Assembly: GCA_949290645.1 (NCBI GenBank)
Contig: CASESG010000001.1
Location: 69,104 to 133,103, forward strand
DNA from: an uncultured Bacillota bacterium
GTDB taxonomy: Bacteria; Bacillota_I; Bacilli_A; RFN20; CAG-288
Length of the DNA stretch: 64,000 nt
Direction: 5' to 3'
Position numbers and translations under genes: made by a program
The notes under the pieces: generated by a model
The model's database searches: none
What the model saw: only the letters and a program-made list of their open reading frames with translations
What the model was told of the DNA's origin: nothing
Shown here: positions 421 to 15,598 of the stretch, piece by piece
Numbering within the stretch: the first letter of the stretch is position 1
Layout: each line of letters starts with the position of its first letter

Positions 421-2940
421 TCAGGCTCGGTTCTGGAAGTCGAGGATGTTGGGGCTTTCCTTCTGGAACTGCACTCCCGAGAGCGACTGGAAGCGATAGG
501 GATAGAAGCCGGTGACGTTGCTTGCCGCTCTCAGCATCGCGATCTTCATCGCCTCGTACTTGGCCTTGGCGCTGGCGTTGAAGTCTGCGACCGGCTCCTG
601 GCTGAGGTCGAGGGAGTAGACGTAGGGATCGAGGGAGAACTCCTCTCCGAAGAGGGACTTGAGGTTGTCGGAGAGACGGACTTCGCTGGCGTTATATCCG
701 CCGCCCCGATAGAAGACGGGGAGGTTGATTTCCTCATCGTGGATCCACTGGCTTTGCTCTTTCTTCAGCAGGAGGCGGAGAGGGAGGTAGTCGTCTTCCG
801 TGATCTCGACCTTCCAGTCATCGCCCAGTCCTCCGTGGGCTCTGATCAGGTTGGCGATGTTCTCCAGGATCAGGGATTCGAAGGAGAGGTTGTCGACCTT
901 CTTCCAGTCGTAGAAGCGACAGTCTCCCTCAAGTTGAACGAGGACCGGGGCGGAAGTCCTTGCCATGTGGGAAGGAAGGGTGTTTCCGAAGTAGATTCCC
1001 GTGATCAAGGAGAGGAGGCTTGTGATGTTGCTCTCAAGGAAGCTTCCCTGGGGAAGAGTGTCGAGCCCGATCGCGCTGATTCCGGAGTTGTCGAAGGAGC
1101 AGTCTTTGATCGTGGCGTTTCCGAAGAAGACCTTGTTTCCGCCCTTGTCGAAGAAACCTTCGGTATTGGTCAGGCTTTCCCTGATGGGATCGAGGCCTTG
1201 GATGTAGTCTTCCTTCTCGTATCCCGCACCGTCGATGCCGACGAACTCGCTCGCCTGGGTGTTGGAGATGGCTCCGAAGGAGAGCAGGGAGTCGGCCTTG
1301 GAATCCATCTTCATCAATCCCTCGAGGCTTTCGGAAGCGAGGTAGTCCTCGGCGGTCGTCTCATGGCGGACTTTGTCCCGGTCGGTGTAGAGGACTTTCT
1401 TCTTCAGGTCGACCTTGTTGCTCTCGTTGGCACCGCTTAGGAAGAGGAACTCCATCGCGTTCTGAAGGAGGGAGTTGTCGATGGTCAGGTCTTTCGTGGA
1501 GAAGGCACGGACGACGTTTCTTCCCTTCTCCAGGATGCTGTCCTTTATGGTGATTCTCTCTCCCTTGGCCTCAAGGACGGTCCCGACATAGGTGAGGTTG
1601 GTGAGGTTGTTGGCGAAGTTGTCGCAGTTGCTGAAGTGGCAGTCGATGAGATCGATGTCCTCTCCCTCGACGTAGAAGCCGACGTTGTCCTGCCCGTAGA
1701 GGGCGAAGATGGGAAGGCCGGAGGAGGTGACACTCACCCCCTTGGTGTTGGGATCTCCAAGGCTTTGAAGGACCAGGGGTCCTCGATAGAGGTCTTCTGG
1801 TCCCAGAAGGGCGTTTGTGGTCTTGTTTCCGAGGCTGTCGGTGATGGTCTGCTCCTCGGAAGGATAGGCGAGGTCGTGGAGGTTGATCTCGAAGCCGTTT
1901 CCGTAGAAGTCCTTCTGGATGTGGACGGCGGCATAGCGCATAAGGGACACGGGACTATCGGGATTGTTCGTGTTCCACAGATCGAGATAGGAATGGTCAT
2001 AGGTCGTCTCGAACAAATAGAGATCCTCTCTTGCAATCTTGTTCTCTCCTTGGGAGAGTCTTCCGAAGAGCTCGTTCTCTTCCTTGGTGCGGACGAGGTT
2101 TCCGTCCTTGTCCTTCTCATAGGCCTTGTCCAGGGAGAGGAGGTTTCTTCTCAGGACGACGGGGATCCCTTTTTCGCTTTTGTTGGTCGCTTCCATCAGG
2201 TCGTCATAGTCGTAGACGTTGAGGGCCGAGACCACATCCAGGGAGAGCTTTCCGTCTCCCTTGCTGGAGACGGGATTGCGGAAGGTGACGAAGGCCTCTC
2301 CTTCCTCAAGGAGCTTGACCTTGTGGTTCTTGAGGTCGACTTCGACGTTGTCCGTGCTCTCGACCTGGATCTCCTCTTCCCGGAAGCTGTCGGTTCCGAA
2401 GATCTGGAGGTCGAACAGGTAGGAGGAATCCGGTCTTCCTTCCTCGTAAGCTTTCTTGCTGTCGTAGAGTCCGACGTAGTGCTTGCCGGTGATGGAGGTG
2501 GCGGAGAAGGGGAGGACGGGGTTGAGGATGATCGCTCCGGAATCGCCGACGATGCGGGCCAGGAAGGATTTCTGGACGTTTCCCTTCTCGTTGGAGCAGA
2601 TGACTTTGCAGGTCCCTTCCTTTTCGAAGGCGAGGTAGGTTCCATCTTCCTCGACTTCGATGTGGGCGACATCGCTTTCTTCCTCGCCCTTGTCGGAGAC
2701 GCATTTCCAGACGAGCTCGTTTCCTTCGCTCAGGGGATAGTTTGTGTCATAGACGGCTTCGGCCTTGAGCAAGGCTCTCTTCTGGGAGAGGGAGAAGGGG
2801 TTCTCTCCGGTGGTGTAGTCCCACTTGATGTCTTCGATGTCCCCTTCGACCGAGCGGATGACGAAGGTCGAGGTGACGAAGGCGAAGATGGCGATGACAA
2901 AGGGCAAGAAGAGCAACAACAGGATGGCTTTCTTTCTCAT
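421..2940 (-). CDS. Membrane-anchored surface protein with Ig-like and beta-helix regions
   Basis: An 839-residue protein. The N-terminus (MRKK, then about 20 hydrophobic residues) is an uncleaved signal anchor or signal peptide without a lipobox. Residues of roughly 60-260 look like beta-rich, bacterial Ig-like sequence. Residues of about 320-720 show the Asn/Asp/Gly-punctuated short strands of a right-handed parallel beta-helix (for example NLTYVGTVLEAKGERITIKD). The ATG overlaps the stop of the upstream ABC permease as ATGA and follows an AAGGAGGAAAGGA ribosome site, so translation is probably coupled. An extracellular location is inferred. The substrate or partner is unknown. It could be cargo of the adjoining ABC transporter or a structural component of the surface system. 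Confidence 0.75.
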   Translation of the reverse strand: MRKKAILLLLFLPFVIAIFAFVTSTFVIRSVEGDIEDIKWDYTTGENPFSLSQKRALLKAEAVYDTNYPLSEGNELVWKCVSDKGEEESDVAHIEVEEDGTYLAFEKEGTCKVICSNEKGNVQKSFLARIVGDSGAIILNPVLPFSATSITGKHYVGLYDSKKAYEEGRPDSSYLFDLQIFGTDSFREEEIQVESTDNVEVDLKNHKVKLLEEGEAFVTFRNPVSSKGDGKLSLDVVSALNVYDYDDLMEATNKSEKGIPVVLRRNLLSLDKAYEKDKDGNLVRTKEENELFGRLSQGENKIAREDLYLFETTYDHSYLDLWNTNNPDSPVSLMRYAAVHIQKDFYGNGFEINLHDLAYPSEEQTITDSLGNKTTNALLGPEDLYRGPLVLQSLGDPNTKGVSVTSSGLPIFALYGQDNVGFYVEGEDIDLIDCHFSNCDNFANNLTNLTYVGTVLEAKGERITIKDSILEKGRNVVRAFSTKDLTIDNSLLQNAMEFLFLSGANESNKVDLKKKVLYTDRDKVRHETTAEDYLASESLEGLMKMDSKADSLLSFGAISNTQASEFVGIDGAGYEKEDYIQGLDPIRESLTNTEGFFDKGGNKVFFGNATIKDCSFDNSGISAIGLDTLPQGSFLESNITSLLSLITGIYFGNTLPSHMARTSAPVLVQLEGDCRFYDWKKVDNLSFESLILENIANLIRAHGGLGDDWKVEITEDDYLPLRLLLKKEQSQWIHDEEINLPVFYRGGGYNASEVRLSDNLKSLFGEEFSLDPYVYSLDLSQEPVADFNASAKAKYEAMKIAMLRAASNVTGFYPYRFQSLSGVQFQKESPNILDFQNRA

Positions 2941-4547
2941 TCCTTTCTTCCTCCTTCATACTTGAGGAACAGACGGTCGGCTTTCCTGAGAAACAGGAAG
3001 AGAAGGATTCCGGAGAGGAGAAGAAGGAAGAGGATGAGGAATCCGTAGAAGGTCCACTCCGGCTTGTCCTTGAGCCCGGGAAGAAGGGTCAGGACGAAGG
3101 AGAGAAGGACGAAGAAGAGCGGGAGGAGGAAGTCGACGATGAGGCTGTAGAAATCCCCTTTGCTCTTCCTCAAGTCCAGGTGCAGGGTCGAAAGGGAGAG
3201 GGAGAGAAGGAAGAGGAAGCCGACTGCGATCAGGAGGAAGAAGGAGAGAAGGGAGATCTCCTTGGTCGAGAGAAGGACGACAAGGCTCACGAGATAGCTG
3301 AAGAGGGAGAAGGAGAGAGGGACCGCCATCTTGGAGAGAAGCTGTCTTTTTGGGGAGACGGGAAGGGTCTTCATCGTCAGGATGTTGTTCCCTTCCTTCT
3401 TCAGGGAGAGGGAAGAGGTGGCGTTGATGATGGAGAGGAAAAGCAGGATCAACAGGACATCGATCAAAAGCAGGATGTTGGGAAAGAGGGTCCTTATGAA
3501 GGTGAGGTTTCCGCTCTGGAAGATGACATTGATGGAAGAGACCACCAGATAGATCAAGAAAGGCTCGACGGCGACAAGGGAGACGAAGGAAAAGAAGCCA
3601 TCGCTCCTTGAGAGGACGAGGGAAAGCTCCTTTCGAAGGAGGGCTTTCTCCGGACTTCTCAGATGGACGGGAAGGGCAAAGTAGGAACGATTCCTCTCCC
3701 TTCTTTTTCCCTTCTTGTAGTCTCTCTTCAGGGCCAGGGTGAGAAGAGGATAGCCCGTTCCCCAGAAGAAGAGAAGGAAGAGGAAGAAAAAGAGGAAAGA
3801 GACTCCGCTTTCCCTTGTGAAGGTCAAGGAGAGGAAGGAGGTCGGATAGAGGAAGTGGGAGATCCTCTTCATGCTCTCCATCCTTTCGGTCGTGAAGAGC
3901 ATGTCCAGAGAAGAGTTCTGGATCAGATCGACAAACAAGCCCAGAAAGAGGGAATAGAGATAGGCAAGAAGGAAGGAACAACAGATCGTCAGAAGGAAGG
4001 AGAGGAGAGGATAGCTCTTCAGAAAGAGGAAGACCTCATGATAGGGAACAAGGAAGAGAAGGCCGATTCCGGTCAAGAGCAGGGAGAAAAGAGGAAGGAA
4101 GAGGACGACCAGGAAGTAGAAGAGGAAGCTTTCCTTTCCAAGAGCGCCATAGACACAGGACAGGGGAAGATAGGTGACAAGAAGGAACAAGGAGTTCTTG
4201 ACGAAGGCGATGGCCGACTTCGTCAGCACGATGTCTCTTATCGAAACCGGCCGGCTCCCCAGGATGATCCTCTCCTTCTCGTCCGGGAAGAAGGAAGAGT
4301 GCATCGTCGGCAGGGCGAAGACGATTCCCAGAAGAAGGACGATGAAGAGGACGAAGTCATAGAAGGAGCGGTTGAATCCGCTGTAGCTCTGAAGCTGCGT
4401 CGAAATCCGAAGGTCGACAAAGACGATCAAGGAGACGAACAAGGCGGTGAAGAAGAGCGTCGAGAAAAGGGAGAAGAAGAGCTTCCTTCCTCTCTTGGCC
4501 GGGAAAAAGCGGGAGCGAAGCTCACGCTCAAAGAGCGTCCTGACCAT
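2937..4547 (-). CDS. ABC transporter permease, 12 TM
   Basis: A 536-residue integral membrane protein with about twelve strongly hydrophobic segments separated by short basic loops, in the style of ABC-2/ABC exporter permeases without a soluble domain. I chose the ATG at 4545-4547 because AAGGAGGAAGAGA precedes it; the frame is open further upstream, inside the ATPase gene. It overlaps the end of the ATPase gene by 20 bases, and its own stop overlaps the next start. With that ATPase it should form a complete exporter. The operon context suggests export of, or self-protection against, a product of this surface locus. The substrate cannot be told from sequence. Confidence 0.85.
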   Translation of the reverse strand: MVRTLFERELRSRFFPAKRGRKLFFSLFSTLFFTALFVSLIVFVDLRISTQLQSYSGFNRSFYDFVLFIVLLLGIVFALPTMHSSFFPDEKERIILGSRPVSIRDIVLTKSAIAFVKNSLFLLVTYLPLSCVYGALGKESFLFYFLVVLFLPLFSLLLTGIGLLFLVPYHEVFLFLKSYPLLSFLLTICCSFLLAYLYSLFLGLFVDLIQNSSLDMLFTTERMESMKRISHFLYPTSFLSLTFTRESGVSFLFFFLFLLFFWGTGYPLLTLALKRDYKKGKRRERNRSYFALPVHLRSPEKALLRKELSLVLSRSDGFFSFVSLVAVEPFLIYLVVSSINVIFQSGNLTFIRTLFPNILLLIDVLLILLFLSIINATSSLSLKKEGNNILTMKTLPVSPKRQLLSKMAVPLSFSLFSYLVSLVVLLSTKEISLLSFFLLIAVGFLFLLSLSLSTLHLDLRKSKGDFYSLIVDFLLPLFFVLLSFVLTLLPGLKDKPEWTFYGFLILFLLLLSGILLFLFLRKADRLFLKYEGGRKE

Positions 4548-5298
4548 TCTCTTCCTCCTTCTCCTTGGCATTCTCCAGGAAATAACGGTTGAGGTCATAG
4601 CGCTCCCGAGGATTCTCCTTCAGGTCGAAGACCTTCTGGATCAAGCCCTTGTTGATGACCGCCACCCGATCGCAGAGACGGGCGATCAGGTCGATGTTGT
4701 GGCTGGCGACGAAGACCGTCTTGCCGTGGCTGACAAACTCCCGCATCATCTTGCAGAGCTCGTTGGCCGTGAAGGCATCGAGACCGACCGTCGGCTCGTC
4801 CAGGATCCAGATCCTCGGATTGTGGATCAGGGAGGCGATGAGGCAGACCTTCTGCTTCATGCCGTGGGAATATTCCATGATGGGACGCATCAGGTCCGCG
4901 TCCGAGAGATCCAGCCTCTTGGCGAGATAGCGGAGATTGGCTAGGAAACGCTCCTCCTCGACCTGATAGATCGAGGCGATGAACTCCACATAGGAAAGAC
5001 CCGTCATCTCCTCGTAGGCCGTCGGCTCGCTGGTCACGTAGCCAAAGCACCTCTTCGCCTCCAGGCTTTCCTTCTGGATGTCATGACCCAGGATCAAGAT
5101 CCTTCCGGAATCGAAATCCTTGATCCCGATGGAACACTCGATCGTCGTCGACTTCCCGACTCCGTTCTTTCCGATGAAGCCGAAAAGCTCTCCCTCGTAG
5201 ACATCCAGGTCGATGCCCTTGAGGACTTCGTGCTTCCCGTAGCTCTTGTGGAGGGAATGGATCGAGAGGGCGATGTTCTTGGACTGGTTCATGTTCAT
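4528..5298 (-). CDS. ABC transporter ATP-binding protein
   Basis: A 256-residue single nucleotide-binding domain. The Walker A is GKNGVGKST (a variant of GxNGxGKST), the signature is YSHGMKQK, and the Walker B is IWILDEPTVGLD followed by a switch His in VASHNID. This is the CcmA/NatA type of ATPase that pairs with ABC-2 permeases. The frame is open upstream to 5511, but the ATG at 5298 overlaps the upstream gene's TGA as ATGA and has AAAGGAAAGG before it; a second ATG at 5292 is nearly as good. It energises the permease encoded by the next gene. Family assignment is firm; substrate unknown. Confidence 0.92.
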   Translation of the reverse strand: MNMNQSKNIALSIHSLHKSYGKHEVLKGIDLDVYEGELFGFIGKNGVGKSTTIECSIGIKDFDSGRILILGHDIQKESLEAKRCFGYVTSEPTAYEEMTGLSYVEFIASIYQVEEERFLANLRYLAKRLDLSDADLMRPIMEYSHGMKQKVCLIASLIHNPRIWILDEPTVGLDAFTANELCKMMREFVSHGKTVFVASHNIDLIARLCDRVAVINKGLIQKVFDLKENPRERYDLNRYFLENAKEKEEENGQDAL

Positions 5299-8147
5299 GC
5301 CTTTCCTTTGATGGACCATGTGTTGTTGGCATAGGACATCGTATAGGACTGGCCTCTTGCATCTCCGGTCTTGCCGCCGGCATAACGATATAAGTACGTC
5401 GTCGCAGCGTTTCCGCTGACGGAATCGGCAAGGACAAAGCTTCCGCGATAGAAAATGTTGTAGGGACGATCGAAGGTCAATTGAGAGCTCATTTTTTCGC
5501 GCCCAAGCCAATCTTTTTCCAAGACGTATCGGCCATAGTCTTGTCCAGCTACGGAAATATAGTTCCCATGAGAAGTGACCTTCCAGAAGGAACCGGCGAG
5601 ATCATCCGGATTTCTTTTTGTGGTCGCTAAAGTTGTCGCACCATAGAAGTTTGACGTATTATCGTTATCCCAGTTGGCAGACCAAGAATAATCGGGGATG
5701 AAGGCATAAGTGTTGTCTCCGTCTGTGATCAATCCGGTCTTCGAATCATAGATTCCGGTCGGGAGCCCATCGATAAAACTTGTACCGGAAGAAGAACCTG
5801 GCAGGACATCGTCTCGTACGACATGATCTGTCGTCGTGTAATCGACCAGAACCTCATTTTTTCTTGTCATCAAGGGTGGAGTATAAAAACCACGGACGTA
5901 AAAGTAGTTGATGCTCCCTGGAGCATTTTTGCTTTGGGAAGAATTTGGGCCTAGCATGAAATAATTGCCAAAAAGACGGACTTTCTTGTGGGATGCGGTT
6001 TGATTCCAGTGATCGATTTCCGTTTGGAAAGATTCCATTGAAGAAATGTCCATTTGACCTCCGAAGACAAAAGGATGATTTTGCTGGATTCCTTCGTTTT
6101 CTTGCAAGAGGATCTGGCCATCGAAATTGCAATAGGCAGGAGTATCGCTCAATACCTTCCATAGACTTGCGTTACTTTCCAATAAGTCACCGTTTTTTGC
6201 GTCTGGCAAAGGATAATAGCTCTTCGAAGTCGGAGAATAATAGAAAGTGTCTAGAAATGTCAGACCGCCAACGGATTGATAGGACTGGGGGTCGAAGTAA
6301 CTGTTGCTTGCTGTTTGGAGAACAGAGGAATAGGAAAGAAGCAGAGTGCTGTGACAATCAATCTCAAGATGGCTTCCCGCCATGAAAACGAGCTCCGTGC
6401 TGAGATGAACTTTTGAATTCTTTATTTCAATTTGGTAATAGAAAGGAATGAAGAACTGGGCTCTTCTCGAGTCAAACCCCATGGAAACGCTCGATACTTG
6501 GAAGTTGATCAACCAATTGGAAAATATCAGATCCGCATTTTCGACTGAATAATTGATTTGTTGGTTGAATAGGTTCGAAGCAAATGATTTGAACTGGTCA
6601 TTGTACGTGACGTTTCGAATGATTTTGCCGGAATTCAGCAACAGCAATTCGTTTCCACTGCTATTGCTTGACGATCCGATGAGTTGAACGATTCCTTGAA
6701 CGCCCATCTTTTCGTCGGACCATCCGGCCAAATCCACCTTGTACTCAGCTTGGAAGCGACTTCCGGAATAAAACACAGTTTCACAATCGAGATAGGGACA
6801 ACGATAGAAGTTGAAAGGAGCATTGGCGTTGTAGAAGGACATCGGCGCAGAAAGGGGAAGGAAGATGTCTTCCAACACGAAGGGAGTCTGCAAGGTGGAA
6901 CCAGGTAACATGACCAAGGATCCTTTGTCTGTCTCATTGGAGAAGGTATTTTTGTCATCGATGTTGAAACGGGAGCTATCCGTTATCGATCCATAACTGG
7001 TCAGCGAATGTTCGGAAGGAAGGATGAGATCATAACCGTTGAGGTCGATTTCGCAATAGCTTCCGTTGATATATCCCTGGAATCCAGATTGCGAAAAATC
7101 GATATTCTTTCCAAAGTAGCCAGTGATTCCCCCGATTGTGATATTTCCGGAGAAAATGACGTCCGATTCGAGGACGATTCGATTGGCACAATAATTTGCG
7201 GAATAGGAGTTCGTAGTCGGGTTATATGTGTAAGTTCCACTGGATGTCAGATCTTTGTAGGGGGTCTGCAGTTTGGAATCGCCTCCTTCTTTAGCGTTCG
7301 CTTCGGGATTAGATAACCCAATTGTGTCATCAGCGTTGTAAGAAACGAATTTCTTTTGTGAGGTGGAATCGTTAGAACCATATCCGTTTTGCGATCCAGA
7401 GCTGGAAGAAAGACGGATATTGACGGCTTGCCCGATTGCAAAGCCAGAGTTTTGTGATTGCTCTACATGCGTGACGGACTGGTATTTACCATTCTTGAAA
7501 GAGCGTAAACTGATGCCAAAAAAAGGTCCACCGTCTTTTTCTGCACTGACGGCTTGAAGCTCGAGGCTGACGTCGTGATTGTAAGCTTTCTCGGTCAAAA
7601 AAATGATGTTGTCCGGTTGGCCGACGAACTCCGAACCTGGATTGAGGCTCTCCTGATAGGTAGCCTGCAGGGTATTGACGGTCGCCGTTTCATAAGACCG
7701 ATTTTTGAATCCTTCATTGTTGCTGTAACTGAGGCGGATGTTGTTTGTCGTCATGTAAGAAGTTGCCAGCCCTTCCAGAATCATGTTTCCAGTGACAGGA
7801 ATGTGATTGCTTAAGGATTGACCGACACTTTCTCCTTCCGTGACGGACCAGGTGAGATATTGATCCCCCGCCACATACATGGCGTTTTTGTCGCCGCTTG
7901 TGGCATCGGCAAGGTCGGCCATACTCAGGATATAGCCGTCCGGAAAATAGCGGGTGGATGTCTCGTTTGTCTGACGGTTCTGAAAGGTGACTTTGTGCAG
8001 TTCTTTCTGGTCTTCCTTGTTCTCGTCGACATTGCTGATGGAGGCGCTAGGATTTTCTGGTTGAATCTGGTATCCCGAATACCCCGTGCTGATGGTCATG
8101 ATGGAAAGTGCGAGGAAGAGGCCGGATTTCAATAATTTCTGTTTCAT
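5295..8147 (-). CDS. Large secreted surface protein
   Basis: A 950-residue protein with an N-terminal signal sequence (KLLKSGLFLALSIMTIS, then STGYSGY) and no other membrane segment. The body is rich in Ser, Asn, Tyr and Thr with repeated short beta-strand patterns. Near the N-terminus is a stretch (KVTFQNRQTNETSTRYFPDG) reminiscent of InlB-type beta-grasp repeats. No enzyme motif was seen. Its signal region resembles that of the upstream 264-residue protein, so both may be matured by the SipW-type peptidase of the operon; this is inference. The stop is coupled to the ABC ATPase start. Base composition here is lower in GC than in the flanking genes, suggesting a fast-evolving or exchanged surface antigen. 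Confidence 0.75.
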   Translation of the reverse strand: MKQKLLKSGLFLALSIMTISTGYSGYQIQPENPSASISNVDENKEDQKELHKVTFQNRQTNETSTRYFPDGYILSMADLADATSGDKNAMYVAGDQYLTWSVTEGESVGQSLSNHIPVTGNMILEGLATSYMTTNNIRLSYSNNEGFKNRSYETATVNTLQATYQESLNPGSEFVGQPDNIIFLTEKAYNHDVSLELQAVSAEKDGGPFFGISLRSFKNGKYQSVTHVEQSQNSGFAIGQAVNIRLSSSSGSQNGYGSNDSTSQKKFVSYNADDTIGLSNPEANAKEGGDSKLQTPYKDLTSSGTYTYNPTTNSYSANYCANRIVLESDVIFSGNITIGGITGYFGKNIDFSQSGFQGYINGSYCEIDLNGYDLILPSEHSLTSYGSITDSSRFNIDDKNTFSNETDKGSLVMLPGSTLQTPFVLEDIFLPLSAPMSFYNANAPFNFYRCPYLDCETVFYSGSRFQAEYKVDLAGWSDEKMGVQGIVQLIGSSSNSSGNELLLLNSGKIIRNVTYNDQFKSFASNLFNQQINYSVENADLIFSNWLINFQVSSVSMGFDSRRAQFFIPFYYQIEIKNSKVHLSTELVFMAGSHLEIDCHSTLLLSYSSVLQTASNSYFDPQSYQSVGGLTFLDTFYYSPTSKSYYPLPDAKNGDLLESNASLWKVLSDTPAYCNFDGQILLQENEGIQQNHPFVFGGQMDISSMESFQTEIDHWNQTASHKKVRLFGNYFMLGPNSSQSKNAPGSINYFYVRGFYTPPLMTRKNEVLVDYTTTDHVVRDDVLPGSSSGTSFIDGLPTGIYDSKTGLITDGDNTYAFIPDYSWSANWDNDNTSNFYGATTLATTKRNPDDLAGSFWKVTSHGNYISVAGQDYGRYVLEKDWLGREKMSSQLTFDRPYNIFYRGSFVLADSVSGNAATTYLYRYAGGKTGDARGQSYTMSYANNTWSIKGKA

Positions 8148-8162
8148 TCGTTTGCCCCCTCT

Positions 8163-8957
8163 TTATGCGGTTTCCTTCGAAACGTTGACGGAGAGAGTGA
8201 CTCCGGAAAAGTCGTCTTCCGTGAGGCCGGTCTCCTTGGAAAGATCCAAGTCCAGAATCAACGTGTATTGGTCATTGTAGGAAATGTGATCGATGAGAAT
8301 GTCCGCCAAGGAATAGAGGTAGGGGTTGCCGTCGATTGTTCCGAGGGCGTGGTCTGTCAACAGGACGGAAAGGGTGAGCGTCTTTTCTGCCGCATCGCTT
8401 CGAAGGTAGGAAACCTCATTTCCCGCATCGGAAAGGGCGTTGTTGTTGATGAACCAATTGCAGAGAGGGAAAAGACGATCGTTGTTGATGTCCTCCAGTG
8501 TCCGATATCGGAAATAGGCCAGGCCATTCTCGGCCAGGGAAGCGACGTTGACGTTGGATGCGCTCGGAAAGGTGAAAATGAAGTCGACGGTCGCCGTGTG
8601 TCCTGGATTTTCGCCAAGCTGTTTGATGACGGCAGCAAGGGCAGGCTGTGAATTCTGGCTCTGGAAGGTGATGACGAAGTCATCGAGATGGGCCTCTCCG
8701 TCCTGTCTGTCGGTGATGGTGTTTCCGGGATGGAGGAGCGCATCTCCTTCAGAATAGTAGTGGATTCCTTCGCAAGCGAGGTTTTGGAACAGATAGGAAG
8801 AGAGATAATTCGTTTGATTTAGCACTTGAACGGCACCGGGCTTCGCTGGCGGAAGCTTGTTCACGTTATCCTTTTCAATAGAATAAGCGGCATAGGAAAT
8901 GGACACGGTCAGGAGAATTCCGGTGGCAAGAACAAGGGACAATGTCCGTCTTCTCAT
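8163..8957 (-). CDS. Secreted protein with SipW-like signal
   Basis: A 264-residue protein starting MRRRT followed by a hydrophobic core (LVLATGILLTVSIS) and an Ala-Ala-Tyr-Ser end, resembling SipW-dependent signal peptides. The mature part is predicted beta-rich with no recognised catalytic motif, and ends in a beta-strand pattern (GVTLSVNVSKE) like the end of the TasA-like protein earlier in the operon. It starts two bases after the lipoprotein gene ends and finishes 15 bases before the 950-residue protein. A fibre or minor-subunit role is plausible but inferred. Family not recognised with certainty. Confidence 0.7.
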   Translation of the reverse strand: MRRRTLSLVLATGILLTVSISYAAYSIEKDNVNKLPPAKPGAVQVLNQTNYLSSYLFQNLACEGIHYYSEGDALLHPGNTITDRQDGEAHLDDFVITFQSQNSQPALAAVIKQLGENPGHTATVDFIFTFPSASNVNVASLAENGLAYFRYRTLEDINNDRLFPLCNWFINNNALSDAGNEVSYLRSDAAEKTLTLSVLLTDHALGTIDGNPYLYSLADILIDHISYNDQYTLILDLDLSKETGLTEDDFSGVTLSVNVSKETA

Positions 8958-8959
8958 GC

Positions 8960-10090
8960 TCAGATTTCCTCAAAACAGGCGAAGAGATGGAGATATTGTT
9001 TCGTCACGGGGGTCAAGTCGGTGAAGCGTCCCGCCCTTGGATCGTCCGGCCCCAAGGCCGAGGTATACCAGCCGAGGAAGGTCGCCCCCTCCTTGGAGGC
9101 GGTCGGGATTTGGCTGTATTCCAGGCTCTCTCCTTTCAGGCATGTGACTTTAGAGAGATAGCTTCCGTCCAAGAGTCCTCCGTTGGTCGTGGCATCGAAC
9201 TCGACGGTGCAGGGGATGGAATCGTTTTTGAGGTTTGCGATGAGATCCCAGGTGAAGCCATTGTAAAGGTAGATGGCAAAATTGGTTAAATCGTAATAGA
9301 AGTCTCCTTGCTTTGCTTGGATGGAGATGTCAAATCCTGGCGCACCATTTCCACTGAACCATTTCGTGGATTCGGGCATCGGGAATTCCAGATGTTCCAG
9401 GTTCTCGCCATCGGGATCGTCCGTGTACTGGATGAAGACGTGGTAGGTGCCATTTGCGCTCTGGGTCGTGATGCTGGCGATACCTCGTCCGTCCTTCCCG
9501 TCCTTCCCCTGGACATAGGGAATCTGGATGACGGTGTCTTCCTTGCTTTCGTCGGTGTAGGAGATGGTGATCGTGGTGTTTCCTTCCTCGTCGGTCTCGC
9601 TTGTGATGTCCTTGATTCCGATTCCGTCCTTGCCGTTCTTCAGGACGAAGGATTTCTCTGTCCCGTCGGTCAGGGAGATGGTGACGGTATTGGTGTCCTT
9701 CTCGACGTCATAGCTGGTGGTGATGTCCTTGATCGAGACGAGGTCGGGAAGCTCGATCAGGGCAGGAGCGAGATCCTTGTCGGTGAAGGTGACCTGGAGA
9801 TAGTTCTTGTTGTCCTTGGTGATCTTCTCGATCTTCTCGATGCCGTTTCCGATCGGGCCTTGCGGTCCTTCCTTGCCGTCCTCGGGAGCGGGGATCTTGA
9901 AGGTCACGGGAGCGTAGGAATCGTCGGTGAAGGTGATGGTGATCGTCGTGTCTCCGTTGTCCTCGGTCGTGGTGGCGATGTTCTCGATGACCATTCCTTG
10001 GTCGCTGAAGAAGGAGGAGCAGGAGCTGAGGGCGAAGAAGGAAAAGAGCGAGAGCAGGAAGAGCTGGATCTTTCTCAGTGTTTTCTTCAT
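8960..10090 (-). CDS. Repeat-rich lipoprotein with Gly-X-Y linkers
   Basis: A 376-residue lipoprotein. The signal ends in the lipobox LSSC near residue 24, so membrane attachment by a lipid is expected. About five beta-hairpin repeats follow, each of the form I-x-x-I-T-x-x-x-D-x-x-x-x-T-T-I-T-I-x-(Y/F)-T-D. They are joined by glycine-rich linkers such as GKEGPQGPIGNG, GKDGIGI and GKDGKDGRGI, which resemble collagen-like or phage tail-fibre linkers. The C-terminus has a second module (GNGAPG) and an InlB-type beta-grasp repeat ending in FLGWYTS. It starts three bases after the zinc-ribbon gene. A structural, cell-surface role is inferred. Confidence 0.8.
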   Translation of the reverse strand: MKKTLRKIQLFLLSLFSFFALSSCSSFFSDQGMVIENIATTTEDNGDTTITITFTDDSYAPVTFKIPAPEDGKEGPQGPIGNGIEKIEKITKDNKNYLQVTFTDKDLAPALIELPDLVSIKDITTSYDVEKDTNTVTISLTDGTEKSFVLKNGKDGIGIKDITSETDEEGNTTITISYTDESKEDTVIQIPYVQGKDGKDGRGIASITTQSANGTYHVFIQYTDDPDGENLEHLEFPMPESTKWFSGNGAPGFDISIQAKQGDFYYDLTNFAIYLYNGFTWDLIANLKNDSIPCTVEFDATTNGGLLDGSYLSKVTCLKGESLEYSQIPTASKEGATFLGWYTSALGPDDPRAGRFTDLTPVTKQYLHLFACFEEI

Positions 10091-10093
10091 ATC

Positions 10094-11176
10094 CTAACCT
10101 CCGATGTGGATGAAGGGGACGTTCTTGACGAAGAAGCGTCCTTTCTCGTCATAGTGGACTTCGGCGTGGCAGAAGGGGCAGTCCTCTCCCTTGAGCGGAT
10201 TGGAGCAGATGGGGCAGATGTCCTTCCTTTTCGAGTCGATGAGGAAGGTGAGGGAAAAGAGGAGAATGCGGAAGTCTTCCTTCTCCAGGAGAGGAAGTCT
10301 TCTCTCTTCCTTCCCGTGTCGGAGAAGGAGCTCCGGAAGGAAGAGGGAGGAGGGAAGGGAGAACTGGTATTCGCTCTCCTCCTCTCCGTCTTTGATCGTG
10401 AGGACCCTCTCCTTCTCCTGGAGCTGGTAGGTCCTTCCTTCTCTTTGCATGATCAAGGTTCCTTCTTCTTCCCGTCCGTCCTCTCCGAGGCTTTCCCTGA
10501 GGGAGGAAGAGAGAGCCTCCCTCATCTCCTTCTGGGCCTTTTCCTCCTTCCGATAGAAGGAGAGAAGAAGGCGGAAGTCCTTCTGCTTGGTGAGGAGATT
10601 GGTCTCTTCGACAGAGGGGAAGGGAAGAAGGGAGACGTTCCTTGCGAAGTCGCTCTCCAGAAGGAAGAGAGCTTTCTTCTGAAGCTTTCGAAGAAGAAGG
10701 GTCCTTCTTTCCTTCTCCTCCTCTTTCTTTCCTTTCTCCTTCACGTATTGCCGAAGGAGGGAGATCGTCCCGTATCTTCCGTAGCTGATCCTTCCCTGGA
10801 GGAAAGGGAGCGTTTCCTCTCCGGAATCGAGATGGCTGGTCGCACTCTCCAGTTCCCTGCTCACCTGGTGGAGAAGGAAGAGGGCGAAGCGGTTCTCGTA
10901 GGTGTCCATCGATTCCGTCGGGACCTTGTCGTACATGCGCTGGATGCGGATCCTTCCCAAGGGGTCCCTGGCAAAAAGGCGAGGGTCTTGGAAGGCCTTC
11001 CGCGCCAGGGAGGAATCGAAGTGGCGGACCTGTTCGATCCGGGAGAGCTCCTCCCTTGTCTCCATCTTCCCCTTTCCGAGGCGGAAGATGTTCTCGATGG
11101 CATCGAGGACCTCTCTCCTCTCCTTGAGCCTTTCCTCAAAGAGGGCGGAGAGGTCTTTTTCCTCCATCTCTCTCAT
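10094..11176 (-). CDS. McrC/DUF2357-like partner protein with zinc ribbon
   Basis: A 360-residue soluble, charged protein. Residues of about 75-105 carry KVPTESMDTYENRFALFLL, which matches the (S)xDTxENRF signature of DUF2357 proteins, the usual partners of McrB-like GTPases/ATPases. A long Lys/Glu-rich, probably coiled region follows. The C-terminus has a zinc ribbon, CPIC-x9-CPFC. I cannot find a PD-(D/E)XK nuclease motif, although McrC and many DUF2357 proteins have one. The ATG overlaps the ATPase stop as ATGA, which supports a stoichiometric complex. The family call rests on this motif plus the neighbour. An alternative start is Met4. Confidence 0.65.
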   Translation of the reverse strand: MREMEEKDLSALFEERLKERREVLDAIENIFRLGKGKMETREELSRIEQVRHFDSSLARKAFQDPRLFARDPLGRIRIQRMYDKVPTESMDTYENRFALFLLHQVSRELESATSHLDSGEETLPFLQGRISYGRYGTISLLRQYVKEKGKKEEEKERRTLLLRKLQKKALFLLESDFARNVSLLPFPSVEETNLLTKQKDFRLLLSFYRKEEKAQKEMREALSSSLRESLGEDGREEEGTLIMQREGRTYQLQEKERVLTIKDGEEESEYQFSLPSSLFLPELLLRHGKEERRLPLLEKEDFRILLFSLTFLIDSKRKDICPICSNPLKGEDCPFCHAEVHYDEKGRFFVKNVPFIHIGG

Positions 11177-13047
11177 AGTCCGATGCGTTCGACCATCCGA
11201 AGGACAGCCTTTCTCGTCTGCGGATAGCTGTCCTTTCCATAGAGAGAGTCGATCTTCGAAAGGAGATGGCTGAGGGACAGGGAGAGAGAGGAATCCATCC
11301 TTCCCTGGAGCTTGCGGAAGACCTTGGTGAGGAAGATCTCGTCCAGGAGGTCCTCCCTCTTCTCTCCCATCTCCGCAAAGACGGGCATCATCTTCTGGAT
11401 CTGGTTCACGATACGGTTTCCCAGGGCGATGGAGAACTCCTCTTCCATGAAGGAGAGAAGCTCCAGGAACTTCTTCCTCTCCTCCTCGGAGAAGAGATTC
11501 TCTTCCTTCCCTTCCGCCTTCTGGAAGAGACTTTTCAATCCTCGGTAGGTGAGGAGGATCGGATGGACCTCTTCCGGGACCTCAAACGGCCTCTGATAGG
11601 ATTCGAAGTCGATCACGATGGCACGGTCGATGACCTTGTCCGTGACCGTGTAGGTCGAGTCGTCCTTGTTGCAGGTTCCGATGAAGTAGGTGTTGGGAAG
11701 AAGGTCGACCTCTCCCTCGTGGAGATGAAGGGGAGCGTCATAGTCTTCCGGAAGGGAGAGCAAGAGAAGATGCCGGTCTTCCTCCGGGAACTCCATCACC
11801 GAGAGGAAGTCGGCGAAGTAATACTCGACCCTCGAGATGTTCATCTCGTCCAGGACCATCAGGTTGAGCCTTTCCGGCTCATAGCTGCTCTGATAGAGAC
11901 GGCGCAGGAAGTTCGTCTCCATGTAGCGTCTTGTGAACTCGTTGTAGTAGCCCAGAAGATCCGACTTCTCCTTGTAGGTCACCTGGATCGGTTCGAAGAA
12001 GCTCTCCTCCCCGATGAACTTCGCAAAGTAACGCGGGAGGGAGGACTTTCCGGTTCCGGAGATACCTTCCAGGATGATGAGATGCGTGGCGTTCATCGCC
12101 GCGACGAAGAGGGCGAGCTCCTTCCTCGGATAGAAGAGACCTTCCTTCTTGGCCAGGTAGGACCTCAGGTCGTCGATCAGGGAAGGAAGATCGACGTTCT
12201 CGCTGTCCAGGGCGACAAAGCTCTGGGCGGCGTTTCTCTCGTCGATCGCACATAAAGTCGGGAAAAGCTGCTCCTTCGGAGGGAGAGCCTCTTTCTCCTC
12301 ATCCCTGGGAGAAAGACGGATCTCCGCCGGCAAGGAAGAGATCTTTCCTTCTCCTTCCGGGGCATTTTGAGAGGAAACCGGAGCGGGACCCTCCTTCTTC
12401 TCCTCTTTCTTCTCCCCTTCGAAGGAAGAGACGACATCATCCTTCTCGTCCTTGTCCGCTCCTTCCTGCTCCTCGAGGAATTCCTTCCTCTCCTTCTCTT
12501 CCTTCTTGACCTGCTCCTCGTTGTAGCTTGTCAGGTTGACCTTCGCGAAGCCGACGCAATAGACCGCAATGCCGATGATGGCATAGACCAGAAGGGAGAG
12601 GATGACGAAGAACAAGGCCGCCAGGACAAGGGCCTGGCTGACGAAGAGCATCGTCGTCCCGTAGCTCTCCATTCCGACGATCAGATGGAAGAGAGAACCG
12701 ACACCCAGAGAGAGGAACAGGGCAATCGCCAAGGCGATGCCATAGGCGTAGAAGGCTTCCTTGCAATAGGTCTTCCGCCCGTGCCTTCTCTGATAGGCGG
12801 CGATGTAGCAGCAGCTGATCACGAAGAGCACCAGGTAGAAGACGATGAACAGAAGCATCACCCACATCATCGCCGTCGCCGCGATGCTCGGGAAACCGAA
12901 GGCCTTGCCCAAGGCCGAGATCGGATTGTTGCGGGCGAAGATCGTGTAGTTGGCGTCAAGGCCAAAGCCCGTCACCAGGGCAAGGACCGCATAGAAGACG
13001 GCGAGACAGATGCTGAGCTTGTTCGCGCGAGTCAGTTTGTTTTCCAT
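11173..13047 (-). CDS. Membrane-anchored McrB-like AAA+ ATPase
   Basis: A 624-residue protein. Four membrane helices lie at about residues 11-30, 59-84, 100-124 and 132-164. An acidic, probably disordered linker covers 175-265. The AAA+ domain covers about 300-560: Walker A GISGTGKSS (328-336), Walker B LMVLDEMNISR (396-406), a sensor-1-like GTCNKDDST (457-465) and an arginine-finger-like DRA (474-476). The DEMN-xxR-x-E-Y-Y-F pattern is typical of the McrB/MoxR-like branch. Ordinary McrB proteins have N-terminal DNA-binding domains, not membrane helices. The gene overlaps the signal peptidase end by 16 bases and is coupled to its McrC-like partner. A motor at the membrane for surface assembly is inferred. 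Confidence 0.85.
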   Translation of the reverse strand: MENKLTRANKLSICLAVFYAVLALVTGFGLDANYTIFARNNPISALGKAFGFPSIAATAMMWVMLLFIVFYLVLFVISCCYIAAYQRRHGRKTYCKEAFYAYGIALAIALFLSLGVGSLFHLIVGMESYGTTMLFVSQALVLAALFFVILSLLVYAIIGIAVYCVGFAKVNLTSYNEEQVKKEEKERKEFLEEQEGADKDEKDDVVSSFEGEKKEEKKEGPAPVSSQNAPEGEGKISSLPAEIRLSPRDEEKEALPPKEQLFPTLCAIDERNAAQSFVALDSENVDLPSLIDDLRSYLAKKEGLFYPRKELALFVAAMNATHLIILEGISGTGKSSLPRYFAKFIGEESFFEPIQVTYKEKSDLLGYYNEFTRRYMETNFLRRLYQSSYEPERLNLMVLDEMNISRVEYYFADFLSVMEFPEEDRHLLLLSLPEDYDAPLHLHEGEVDLLPNTYFIGTCNKDDSTYTVTDKVIDRAIVIDFESYQRPFEVPEEVHPILLTYRGLKSLFQKAEGKEENLFSEEERKKFLELLSFMEEEFSIALGNRIVNQIQKMMPVFAEMGEKREDLLDEIFLTKVFRKLQGRMDSSLSLSLSHLLSKIDSLYGKDSYPQTRKAVLRMVERIGL

Positions 13048-13961
13048 TGCTTGTAGTCGCTTTCCGGAAGGATCGTCTCTTGTTGGTCAGTCTGTAGAAG
13101 GGTGTCTCCGTCCTTTGTCTTTTCGTCATCGTACAAAAAGGATGTCTTGCGGAAGAACAGTGTTCCGCTTTCGCTGATCAGAGTGAAATTGTCTAATTGC
13201 AAGACCTTTGAGTCGAGAAATTGGATACGGATCTCGGCAGCCCTCTGGTTTCTCACGGACAGAATCTCGTAGAGAACAAGGAGGTAGAAGACGGAAACGA
13301 AGGCCAGGATCCCGTAGTTCGACTGGGCGAAGAAGACCAGGATTCCGATCTTCGGGATGCGGAAGCCCGTGTAGACTCCGACCACGTCCTTTAAGGTGAT
13401 CTTCATCGAGTCGGTGCTCTCGTTGGCATCTCCCCTTGTCCGGAGATAGCCTTCTTCCTTCTCGACCACCCGGTGGACGATCTCCAGTCCGTCATCGTTG
13501 ACATAGCTGATGATGTCATAGACCTGGATCTCGTCCAGGGAGTTCACCTTTCTCAGGCCGATCCAGTCGTTGACCTGGAGCTGGTCGTCGAGATCGTTTG
13601 CGAAGAGATATTCGTTCTTCGGATTCTTCTCCGACATCGAACCGGTGGCGATGACCGCCGTCTGGAACGGAAGGTCGAAGGAATTGATGGTCTTGTCGGC
13701 CAAGGAGAGGAGGAAGAGAGCGGAGAGAAATGCCAGAACAGCATCCAGGACGAAACCGAAGATTCTTCGGATCGATCCGGATGCTGTCTTTTTCGCTGTC
13801 CGTTCCTTTTCTCTCTCCCGCAATTCCTTTGCGTAGAGCAGGGAATCGTTCTTTCCCGCCAATGTCCTCTTCTTCTCTTCCCGAAAGACCGAGAGAAAGT
13901 AGATCGTCAGTCCCGAAAGGAGGAGGAGAACGATGGCCAGGGAGATCCAGAAAAGGAGCAT
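13032..13961 (-). CDS. sipW: SipW-type (S26B) signal peptidase I
   Basis: A 309-residue membrane protein with an N-terminal TM, a cytoplasmic basic stretch, a second TM near residue 75, the catalytic Ser in ATGSMSEKNP, and a C-terminal TM. The general-base position is a His (IVHRVVEKEEG) rather than Lys, which is the archaeal/ER-type S26B pattern of SipW. The GDANESTDS box is also conserved. In Bacillus, SipW processes TasA and TapA (known). Here it lies between a TasA-like gene and the AAA+ gene, so its substrates are probably the secreted proteins of this operon. The gene symbol reflects the family, not a proven orthologue. Confidence 0.85.
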   Translation of the reverse strand: MLLFWISLAIVLLLLSGLTIYFLSVFREEKKRTLAGKNDSLLYAKELREREKERTAKKTASGSIRRIFGFVLDAVLAFLSALFLLSLADKTINSFDLPFQTAVIATGSMSEKNPKNEYLFANDLDDQLQVNDWIGLRKVNSLDEIQVYDIISYVNDDGLEIVHRVVEKEEGYLRTRGDANESTDSMKITLKDVVGVYTGFRIPKIGILVFFAQSNYGILAFVSVFYLLVLYEILSVRNQRAAEIRIQFLDSKVLQLDNFTLISESGTLFFRKTSFLYDDEKTKDGDTLLQTDQQETILPESDYKQWKTN

Positions 13962-13986
13962 GCGGAAGTTTTTTCCGGGTGTTTTT

Positions 13987-14628
13987 TTACTCGCCGACAG
14001 TGACGGTGATGGTGAAGGTCGTCGCCTCCAAGGCCGTCTTGAAGTCGTTGAGGACGCCGTTTACCGTCGTGGTGTTGTTATCGTCAGACTTTCCAAGAGG
14101 AAGTTCCTTTCCCGCACCGTTGTTGAAGTATTCGCAGGGATCGGATCCTCCGAAAGCATCCCCCCAACCCCAGGTGAGGGTGACTGCCGTCGCGGCGTTG
14201 TCGGTGATCGTGGCCGTGGTGTTGCCCGGAGCGGTGATGTAGTTCTTGGTGACGGCGTTGTTATCGCCACTTGTCTCGATGTTGATGTTGATCGTCTTTT
14301 CGTTGAGGTTGTAATCGGGATCATCGGGAGTCAGGGTGAGGACAAGGTCGAGGTTGGCAGCAGGATTTCCATCATACTGGAGACGTCCCGTGTCGACTGC
14401 GGCAGCCGGGTAGAAGAGAAGCGAGGTATCTTCCAAAGTCACATTCAGGGAATAGTTCTTGTTTTCGATGTCGATCTGGCCAGGGGTGACCGCGTTGTCA
14501 TCGAAGTTGACCTTGCTGTCTGAGAGCACATAGCCTGCGAAGGCCGCGGTTCCGATGCCTGCGAGACCGAAGAGCAAGCCGAGTGTCGCATAGAGCTTCT
14601 TGTGCGAATTCTTCTTTTTTTGACTCAT
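13987..14628 (-). CDS. TasA-like protein with SipW-dependent signal
   Basis: A 213-residue secreted protein. The N-terminus is long and Lys-rich (MSQKKKNSHKK), followed by LYATLGLLFGLAGIGTAAFAGY and then LSDSKVNFDDNAVTPGQIDI, the typical layout of SipW-dependent signal peptides. The mature part of about 170 residues is Thr/Asn/Asp-rich and beta-predicted, ending TFTITVTVGE. It is the promoter-proximal gene, with a strong AAAAGGAGG site, so it is probably the most abundant product and could be a fibre-forming major subunit. It resembles TasA/CalY in signal and context only; sequence identity cannot be judged here. Confidence 0.75.
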   Translation of the reverse strand: MSQKKKNSHKKLYATLGLLFGLAGIGTAAFAGYVLSDSKVNFDDNAVTPGQIDIENKNYSLNVTLEDTSLLFYPAAAVDTGRLQYDGNPAANLDLVLTLTPDDPDYNLNEKTININIETSGDNNAVTKNYITAPGNTTATITDNAATAVTLTWGWGDAFGGSDPCEYFNNGAGKELPLGKSDDNNTTTVNGVLNDFKTALEATTFTITVTVGE

Positions 14629-14657
14629 AAAGACCTCCTTTTATGGATCGCGGATTC

Positions 14658-14685
14658 ATTGTAGGGCGGGGGGGGATTGATGGCA
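14658..14685 (-). promoter_or_regulatory. Promoter of the surface operon, with poly-C/G spacer
   Basis: On the minus strand a -35 TTGCCA (680-685) and a -10 TACAAT (658-663) are separated by 16 bases. The spacer contains a run of seven C (G7 on the plus strand, 668-674) followed by G and CCC. Sixteen is shorter than the optimal 17. The transcript would start about 25 bases before the ribosome site of the TasA-like gene. Slippage in the homopolymer would change the spacing. Confidence 0.6.
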
Positions 14686-14824
14686 ACTGGAGGGGAGACT
14701 TCGGTGCTCCTTTTTGCTTTGGATGCCTTAACCGATCAATTTTTTCGATCCAAAAGGCAAGGATCAAGAAAAAAGCGGGATGTTTTTGATTCATCTCGCC
14801 TGTCATTACGCTTTTATATCTTTG

Positions 14825-15598
14825 TCAAAGATCCTTGACAAGAGTTGTAAAGAAATCGGGCTTGATGAGGTAATAGAGTCCCCATTCGCTGTGGATCAGT
14901 CTCGTCGTGCGGAAGATCCTTCGGTTGACGGCATAGAAGAGAAGGGCCAGGAGGAAGGAGGCGAGAAGGAGGAAGACGGTCGTCAGGACTTTGAGCAGGT
15001 CTGTCAGGACAAGGTCGGGGAAGAGATAGTTCAACAGGGTTCCGTCGACCATCTTGAGGATCACGTAGGAGGACTTCGGGATTCCGGGATAGAGGATGTC
15101 CTTCTTGACCAGGAAGGCGAAGAGCAGAGTCAGGGCGAAGGAACAGGCCGTGTAGAGGAAGACTCTCTTCTGGTACTTCCTCGTTCCGAAAAGGAGCATC
15201 AGGCCGAAGAAGAAGAGCAGGGAATGGCTCAGGATGGCCAGGACGAACTCGAAGGTCCCAAGGCCGGACATCATGGAAGAGGGGGAGAGCATGGCACCGA
15301 CGAAATATCCCAGTCCGCTCAAGAAGGAGAAGTATCCGCCGACGTACTGGAGCTGCGGGATTCCCGAAAGCAGGATGCCACAGGTCAGGAAGTAGCTGAT
15401 GTGGCTGATCTCGATGGGATAGACCTTGATGCCCATGACCGCATAGGCGATGAACTGCCCGCTGCGGACGAGAGCCAGAAGAAGGCTCAGGGTGAAGACG
15501 AAAGGGAGCGAGAAGGATTTCTTCCTCAGGTAGACGAAGAGGAGGATCAAGGAGAGGTAGAGGGAAAGAAGGAGAAGGCGATAGGAAATGGGATCCAT
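14825..15598 (-). CDS. Multi-pass integral membrane protein (possibly YwaF/TMEM164-like)
   Basis: A 257-residue protein with about seven hydrophobic segments over nearly its whole length and a basic C-terminus. A His sits in the segment SHISYFLTCGILL; polar residues at that place recall YwaF/TIGR02206 proteins, but the match is weak. The frame is open further upstream to 16312, antisense to gmk. I chose the ATG at 15596-15598 because AAGGAGA lies about ten bases before it and the extension is just the gmk shadow. It is divergent from gmk. No function is assigned. Confidence 0.7.
   Translation of the reverse strand: MDPISYRLLLLSLYLSLILLFVYLRKKSFSLPFVFTLSLLLALVRSGQFIAYAVMGIKVYPIEISHISYFLTCGILLSGIPQLQYVGGYFSFLSGLGYFVGAMLSPSSMMSGLGTFEFVLAILSHSLLFFFGLMLLFGTRKYQKRVFLYTACSFALTLLFAFLVKKDILYPGIPKSSYVILKMVDGTLLNYLFPDLVLTDLLKVLTTVFLLLASFLLALLFYAVNRRIFRTTRLIHSEWGLYYLIKPDFFTTLVKDL

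Follow-up and report, generated by a model that had tools for sequence, protein, structure and literature searches.

Does the homopolymer in the promoter of a surface operon from an uncultured member of the Bacilli act as a switch, with its length setting how strongly the operon is expressed? Phase variation through simple repeats is familiar chiefly from pathogens. The locus lies in a 64,000 nt stretch of DNA (termed the window; G000:C1:69104-133103) from a genome assembly of 1,225,511 bases in 9 contigs (G000) that is 84.67% complete. A sequence-only reading had assigned a promoter to the operon and described a run of seven G/C bases in a 16-base spacer, from which it proposed phase variation. 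Direct counting and a promoter scan give the following arrangement:

14681..14686, minus strand: −35 hexamer TTGCCA (promoter scan; 5/6 match to TTGACA)
14668..14675, minus strand: C8 on the coding strand (G8 on the plus strand), a putative slippery run (read directly, counted)
14664..14680, minus strand: promoter spacer of 17 bases, TCAATCCCCCCCCGCCC (promoter scan)
14658..14663, minus strand: −10 hexamer TACAAT (promoter scan; TAGAAT at the same place in the orthologue of genome G007)

The homopolymer is present, within the spacer of the operon's best upstream sigma-70-like promoter, and two lengths required correction: the run has eight bases, not seven, and the distance between TTGCCA and TACAAT is 17 bases, not 16. 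A homopolymer of at least 7 bases between −35 and −10, the porA type of arrangement, is found here as C8 in a 17-base spacer. The run begins 5 bases after the −35 and ends 4 bases before the −10; with its flanks it reads GGGCGGGGGGGG on the plus strand and CCCCCCCCGCCC (12 bases) on the coding strand. The promoter assignment itself holds, with near-consensus hexamers at 17 and TTGAAT-17-TAGAAT at the corresponding place of the orthologous operon in G007. TTGCCA-17-TACAAT is the sole sigma-70-like promoter found by the scan in 14400-15000 (shuffled sequences average 0.5). On the minus strand, 29 bases separate TACAAT from the ATG at 14628, and AAAGGAGG precedes this start codon. A plus-strand promoter using the run as G8 was considered and rejected, its best score being only 4.9.

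Ten co-directional genes, mostly overlapping or a few bases apart, extend from this promoter to position 421:

13987..14628, minus strand: gene 1, secreted protein of 213 aa with a signal region (translation; AGGAGG before ATG)
13032..13961, minus strand: gene 2, SipW-like signal peptidase I (NF046067, E 4.9e-17; TIGR02228, E 8.6e-13; under both curated cut-offs)
11173..13047, minus strand: gene 3, McrB-like AAA protein of 624 aa (PRK11331, E 1.5e-4; PADLOC PDC-M26A, E 1.5e-40)
10094..11176, minus strand: gene 4, DUF2357 protein (PF09823, E 1.7e-10)
8960..10090, minus strand: gene 5, lipoprotein with a weak collagen-flanked surface repeat match (PF19079, E 4e-4, under cut-off)
8163..8957, minus strand: gene 6, second SipW-type secreted protein (translation)
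5295..8147, minus strand: gene 7, 950 aa, exported-looking, with a signal-peptide-like N-terminus (translation)
4528..5298, minus strand: gene 8, ABC-transporter ATPase-like (by eye; start inferred within a longer ORF)
2937..4598, minus strand: gene 9, membrane protein of 553 aa, likely a transporter permease (by eye)
421..2940, minus strand: gene 10, 839 aa with a hydrophobic N-terminus (translation)

Gene 1 has no match in Pfam or NCBIfam. We take its signal region to be of the SipW/TasA type, a label given to the secreted proteins of the operon because of the signal region and the adjoining SipW-like peptidase. The secreted proteins, the peptidase and the lipoprotein downstream of the promoter bear out the earlier description of a surface-structure operon. 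The operon type at 421-14628 combines SipW-type secreted proteins, a SipW-like peptidase, a McrB-like AAA protein, a DUF2357 protein and an ABC transporter, and copies of it occur in other genomes of the family.

The run at 14668-14675 is the only G/C run of at least 7 counted within the 64-kb window. Runs of at least 8 are expected 1.8, 0.3 and 0.2 times per 64 kb under Markov models of order 1, 2 and 3, and at least one arose in 18/20, 6/20 and 4/20 simulations, respectively. At the scale of the window, run length by itself is unremarkable and constitutes weak evidence. The promoter might be an ordinary one with a GC-rich spacer, C8 being a stable chance run in a genome of 52% GC that is unrelated to the G-run promoters described below. 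We consider this account possible but rather doubtful; in its favor, the order 2 and order 3 models expect 0.2-0.3 such runs in each window.

Across the whole G000 genome there are 16 G/C runs of at least 7, of which 11 are at least 8 bases long. Besides the window run, these 11 comprise four that lie between TTGACA and a −10 on the G strand before secreted-protein genes, and several in other settings:

C1:49817: G9 in a TTGACA promoter; the gene after it encodes a secreted protein of 978 aa that matches glycosidase family 2 (among the scanned set)
C1:151726: G9 in a TTGACA promoter, spacer 19, before a lipoprotein
C1:270538: G8 in a TTGACA promoter, spacer 16, before a lipoprotein-like gene
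C3:36298: G8 in a TTGACA promoter, spacer 18, before a SipW-type protein
C4:61404 and C4:98376: before genes for exported proteins, with no good hexamers nearby
C3:90517-90524 (L102): G8, in frame, within a gene resembling DNA methyltransferases (NPPY motif by eye); a helicase-like ORF comes next
C1:171965: G8 in coding DNA, in frame, inside a SipW-type gene
C4:44272-44281 (L103): G10 around codon 15 of an ORF for a SipW-type secreted protein; as assembled the ORF is out of frame (24 aa), and an open frame of 205 aa lies past it
C6:33435: G8, the last of the 11, fitting none of the other placements

By our own classification, 7/11 of the runs of at least 8 lie in non-coding DNA upstream of genes, with a chance probability of 5e-6 at a non-coding share of 8% (taken from 92% coding in two stretches of the same genome). 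The places of the 11 runs are not random. The G8 of L102 is a possible site of phase-variable restriction-modification and the G10 of L103 looks like a translational contingency site.

The TTGACA promoters define a class, consisting of TTGACA, 2-14 bases, a coding-strand run of G8 or longer and a −10 adjoining the run. We searched for TTGACA-N(2-14)-G8 and, as a control, for the reversed pattern in the same genomes. The pattern occurs in 6/15 genomes of the genus (control 0/15), 49/279 genomes of the order (control 2/279) and 41/392 genomes of a phylum sample (control 2/392), and four other promoters of G000 fall within the class. As background, 20 stretches from the same genome group (300,020 bases) contain no G/C run of at least 7.

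We analyzed 90 sites among the matches listed for the order. Their runs are 8 (23 sites), 9 (29), 10 (28), 11 (6), 12 (2), 13 (1) and 15 (1) bases long. TA directly follows the run in 61/90 and C directly precedes it in 68/90, and TANNNT occurs 0-6 bases after the run in 84/90 of these listed sites, compared with 22/90 at a control offset of 30-36. Spacers range from 14 to 21 among the listed sites; 34 of the 84 with TANNNT have spacers of 16-18 and 50 fall outside, a spread covering, by prediction, both on and off states. The longest run seen, at G033:C3:268-283 (L300), is a G16 between TTGACT and TAAAAT in a genome without full-length MutS1.

A census listed every G8 in 8 genomes that had been chosen as positives for such promoters. 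Strict TTGACA sites account for 30/71 runs, a share that reflects this biased choice and is no estimate for the order. The contrast between strands provides an internal control: among the other 41 runs, a promoter score of at least 9 was reached by 17 on the G strand and by 2 on the C strand. Under a single scoring rule, the window promoter reaches 10.4 with the run read on the C strand. C-strand scores of at least 10 were found at 0/10 other runs of the same genome, where the window promoter is the best, at 1/41 census runs and at 0/89 strict sites. This scarcity of equally good C-strand promoters argues against an ordinary promoter that happens to carry a run. What is unusual about the window run is its position in a promoter, rather than its length.

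Under a simple in-house rule, export-like N-terminal signals are found in 60/87 genes downstream of listed sites with an ORF but in only 36/263 background genes (Fisher 7.6e-22), and a lipobox in 17/87 versus 7/263. A Pfam search covering 86 of the 87 ORFs (one short ORF was omitted) returned surface-type families, including the prepilin N-methylation motif (4), BspA-type LRR (3), acyltransferase 3 family (2) and MBOAT (2), and further the Listeria-Bacteroides repeat (2), a sugar transferase (1) and glycosidase family 2 (1). Non-surface families also occur downstream, such as zinc ribbons (up to 4), SPFH (2) and AraC (1).

Run length was compared in 27 pairs of homologous promoters among the listed sites, defined by downstream proteins matching at E 1e-10 or better. 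Length differs in 18/27 pairs and agrees in 9, and about 73% of random pairs drawn from the observed lengths would be expected to differ; therefore, homologues do not preserve run length. Three pairs with nearly identical flanks differ by a single G: L051 (G8) and L053 (G9) from two species of the genus, L155 (G9) and L156 (G8) within one genome, and L178 (G10) and L180 (G9).

These differences bear on a further explanation. CsoR/RcnR-type proteins bind G-tracts near promoters, and a regulator of this type that reads the G/C run could control the genes from a fixed operator, with run length not being the switch. The stereotyped placement in the listed sites (against the −10 in 61/90, C before the run in 68/90) is what such an operator would produce, but it should also hold run length and spacer constant. 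The listed sites instead span runs of 8-15 and spacers of 14-21, and the 18 homologous pairs of unequal length speak against it as well, making a fixed operator improbable.

Another possibility is that the metagenome assembly gives the wrong run length. G-runs are difficult to sequence, and 6/54 fetched G-run sites lie less than 300 bases from a contig end (1.3 expected). The window run, however, sits far from the ends of its 340 kb contig, a length of 8 is short for miscalling, and miscalls cannot produce the placement pattern, so that we regard an assembly artefact as very improbable. The six sites near contig ends are L138, L141, L142, L169, L171 and L177 (P ~0.002), and assemblies may be breaking near G-run promoter sites.

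The window promoter lies outside the G-run class, having TTGCCA, a C8 on the coding strand and a distance of 4 bases from the −10. The pattern TTGNCA..C8..TANNNT occurs in 3/273 genomes, the window among them, versus 4/273 for the control; TTGMC..C8..TANAAT occurs in 4/273 (5 sites), again with the window among them, versus 1/273. A C-oriented kind of run promoter may exist, but it is rare, and the window run therefore cannot be placed in the G-run class. This near-control frequency agrees with an ordinary promoter. One of these five sites, from the same genus (L265, G007:C16:13844-13874), has CCCCCCCCGCCC between TTGACG and TATAAT, the identical 12 bases of the window promoter, and is followed by a lipoprotein gene that is glycosidase-like in appearance.

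Homologues of the operon point in both directions. Gene 3 has matches in 18/23 genomes of the family, ranging from 100% to short AAA-only matches. The closest orthologue, a syntenic operon in G007 whose gene 3 is 69% identical, has no run in its promoter, as an ordinary promoter would predict, and copies in G003, G015 and G020 have none in the spacer. Against a chance run, interrupted G/C runs recur by eye in the spacers of more distant copies: CCCCCTCCC in the second copy of G007 (TTGACT-TTTGTCCCCCTCCCGC-TATATA) and GGGGTGGGG in G021 (TTGCAT-TCGGGGTGGGGTAGAGT-TATGAT). The second operon copies of G000 and of G001 likewise have a G9 upstream. These two runs (L090, G000:C4:61404; L095, G001:C2:121523) lie ~140 bases before the start and are kept across two species despite differing flanks; as spacer runs they were rejected, with no convincing promoter hexamers around either.

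Searches for closer relatives of the promoter DNA itself gave, among 59 genomes and besides its own, two short matches, neither covering the run, and one pattern scan of viral contigs found no copies. One scan of genome contigs returned 8 loci from uncultured Bacilli, Firmicutes and Bacillales bins, none of them close; runs of at least 7 are present in 2/8 of these, with promoter placement not obvious.

Mismatch repair is relevant to how often such a run would slip. G000 encodes full-length MutS1 in an 873-aa frame that scores over the cut-off, and 72/273 genomes pass the same cut-off. Slippage from missing mismatch repair is not supported: the enzyme is present in G000 itself, and G-run promoters are found both alongside it (e.g. 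G034, G031) and where it is missing (e.g. G033, G171). MutS1 would lower the slippage of an 8-base run, and because it is present the slippage rate is perhaps modest. Its presence also favors an ordinary promoter holding a stable run.

The proposal of phase variation is thus upheld in part: G/C-run promoters stand before surface genes and lengths differ at homologous promoters of relatives, whereas the closest orthologue lacks a run and the C orientation is rare. With moderate confidence, we favor the view that the C8 serves the ten-gene surface operon as a slipped-strand contingency site within its main promoter. Replication slippage would add or remove a C, shifting the distance between −35 and −10 from 17 (predicted ON) to a weaker 16 or 18; a change of two Cs would give spacers of 15 or 19, near off. 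Cells would then differ in the amount of operon product. Slippage and the resulting change in expression are inferred, as is any length variation at the window site itself.

The window site would be a rarer, C-oriented case within a larger group of switches at G/C runs, found both here and in related genomes. In most of these a coding-strand G-run directly adjoins the −10, and the genes driven encode secreted proteins, lipoproteins, pilins and surface-modifying enzymes. That the wider G-run set consists of such switches is likely on the sequence evidence. We find it similarly likely that, throughout this lineage of uncultured, mostly small-genome Bacilli, each clade has dozens of promoters with a poly-G switch in the spacer (TTGACA, 2-11 bases, G8-G16, TATAAT). 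Such switches would control lipoproteins, SipW-type secreted proteins, prepilins, acyltransferases, a sugar transferase and glycosidases; a few further runs would accompany them within coding sequences, among them that of a DNA methyltransferase, and the window operon would belong to the set in C orientation. Should the set prove real, surfaces stay heterogeneous in uncultured Bacilli for which no genetic system exists, and one assembled genome of these species displays just one of many expression states. The switch could be read directly from metagenome reads, and the claim is therefore directly testable. With a lineage-wide set, commensals would have an equivalent of pathogens' contingency systems.

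No description of such promoters in these Bacilli was found in the literature searched. The slippage mechanism is already known in its porA-like form. According to PMC7864442, porA of Neisseria meningitidis has a poly-G between −35 and −10 with an optimum spacing of 17, and the poly-G of Treponema pallidum tp0126, an outer-membrane protein gene, sets the hexamer distance, which is best at 17. The same source describes the poly-C of N. meningitidis opc as covering the −35 (PMC7864442). The parallel with opc drawn by the sequence-only reading is accordingly the less apt one: opc shares a poly-C at a surface-protein promoter, but in the window promoter the −35 is intact and the run starts 5 bases on, within the spacer, so that the opc type of overlap is absent. 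The closer parallels are porA and tp0126. With porA, the window promoter shares a G/C homopolymer between the hexamers, a spacing of 17 and a surface protein downstream; with tp0126, it shares a run inside the spacer and a spacing of 17, best there and present here. Unlike both, the window promoter has its run as C on the coding strand, separated by 5 bases from the −35 and by 4 from the −10, and serves a multi-gene operon in Bacilli. For tp0126, variation has been demonstrated experimentally.
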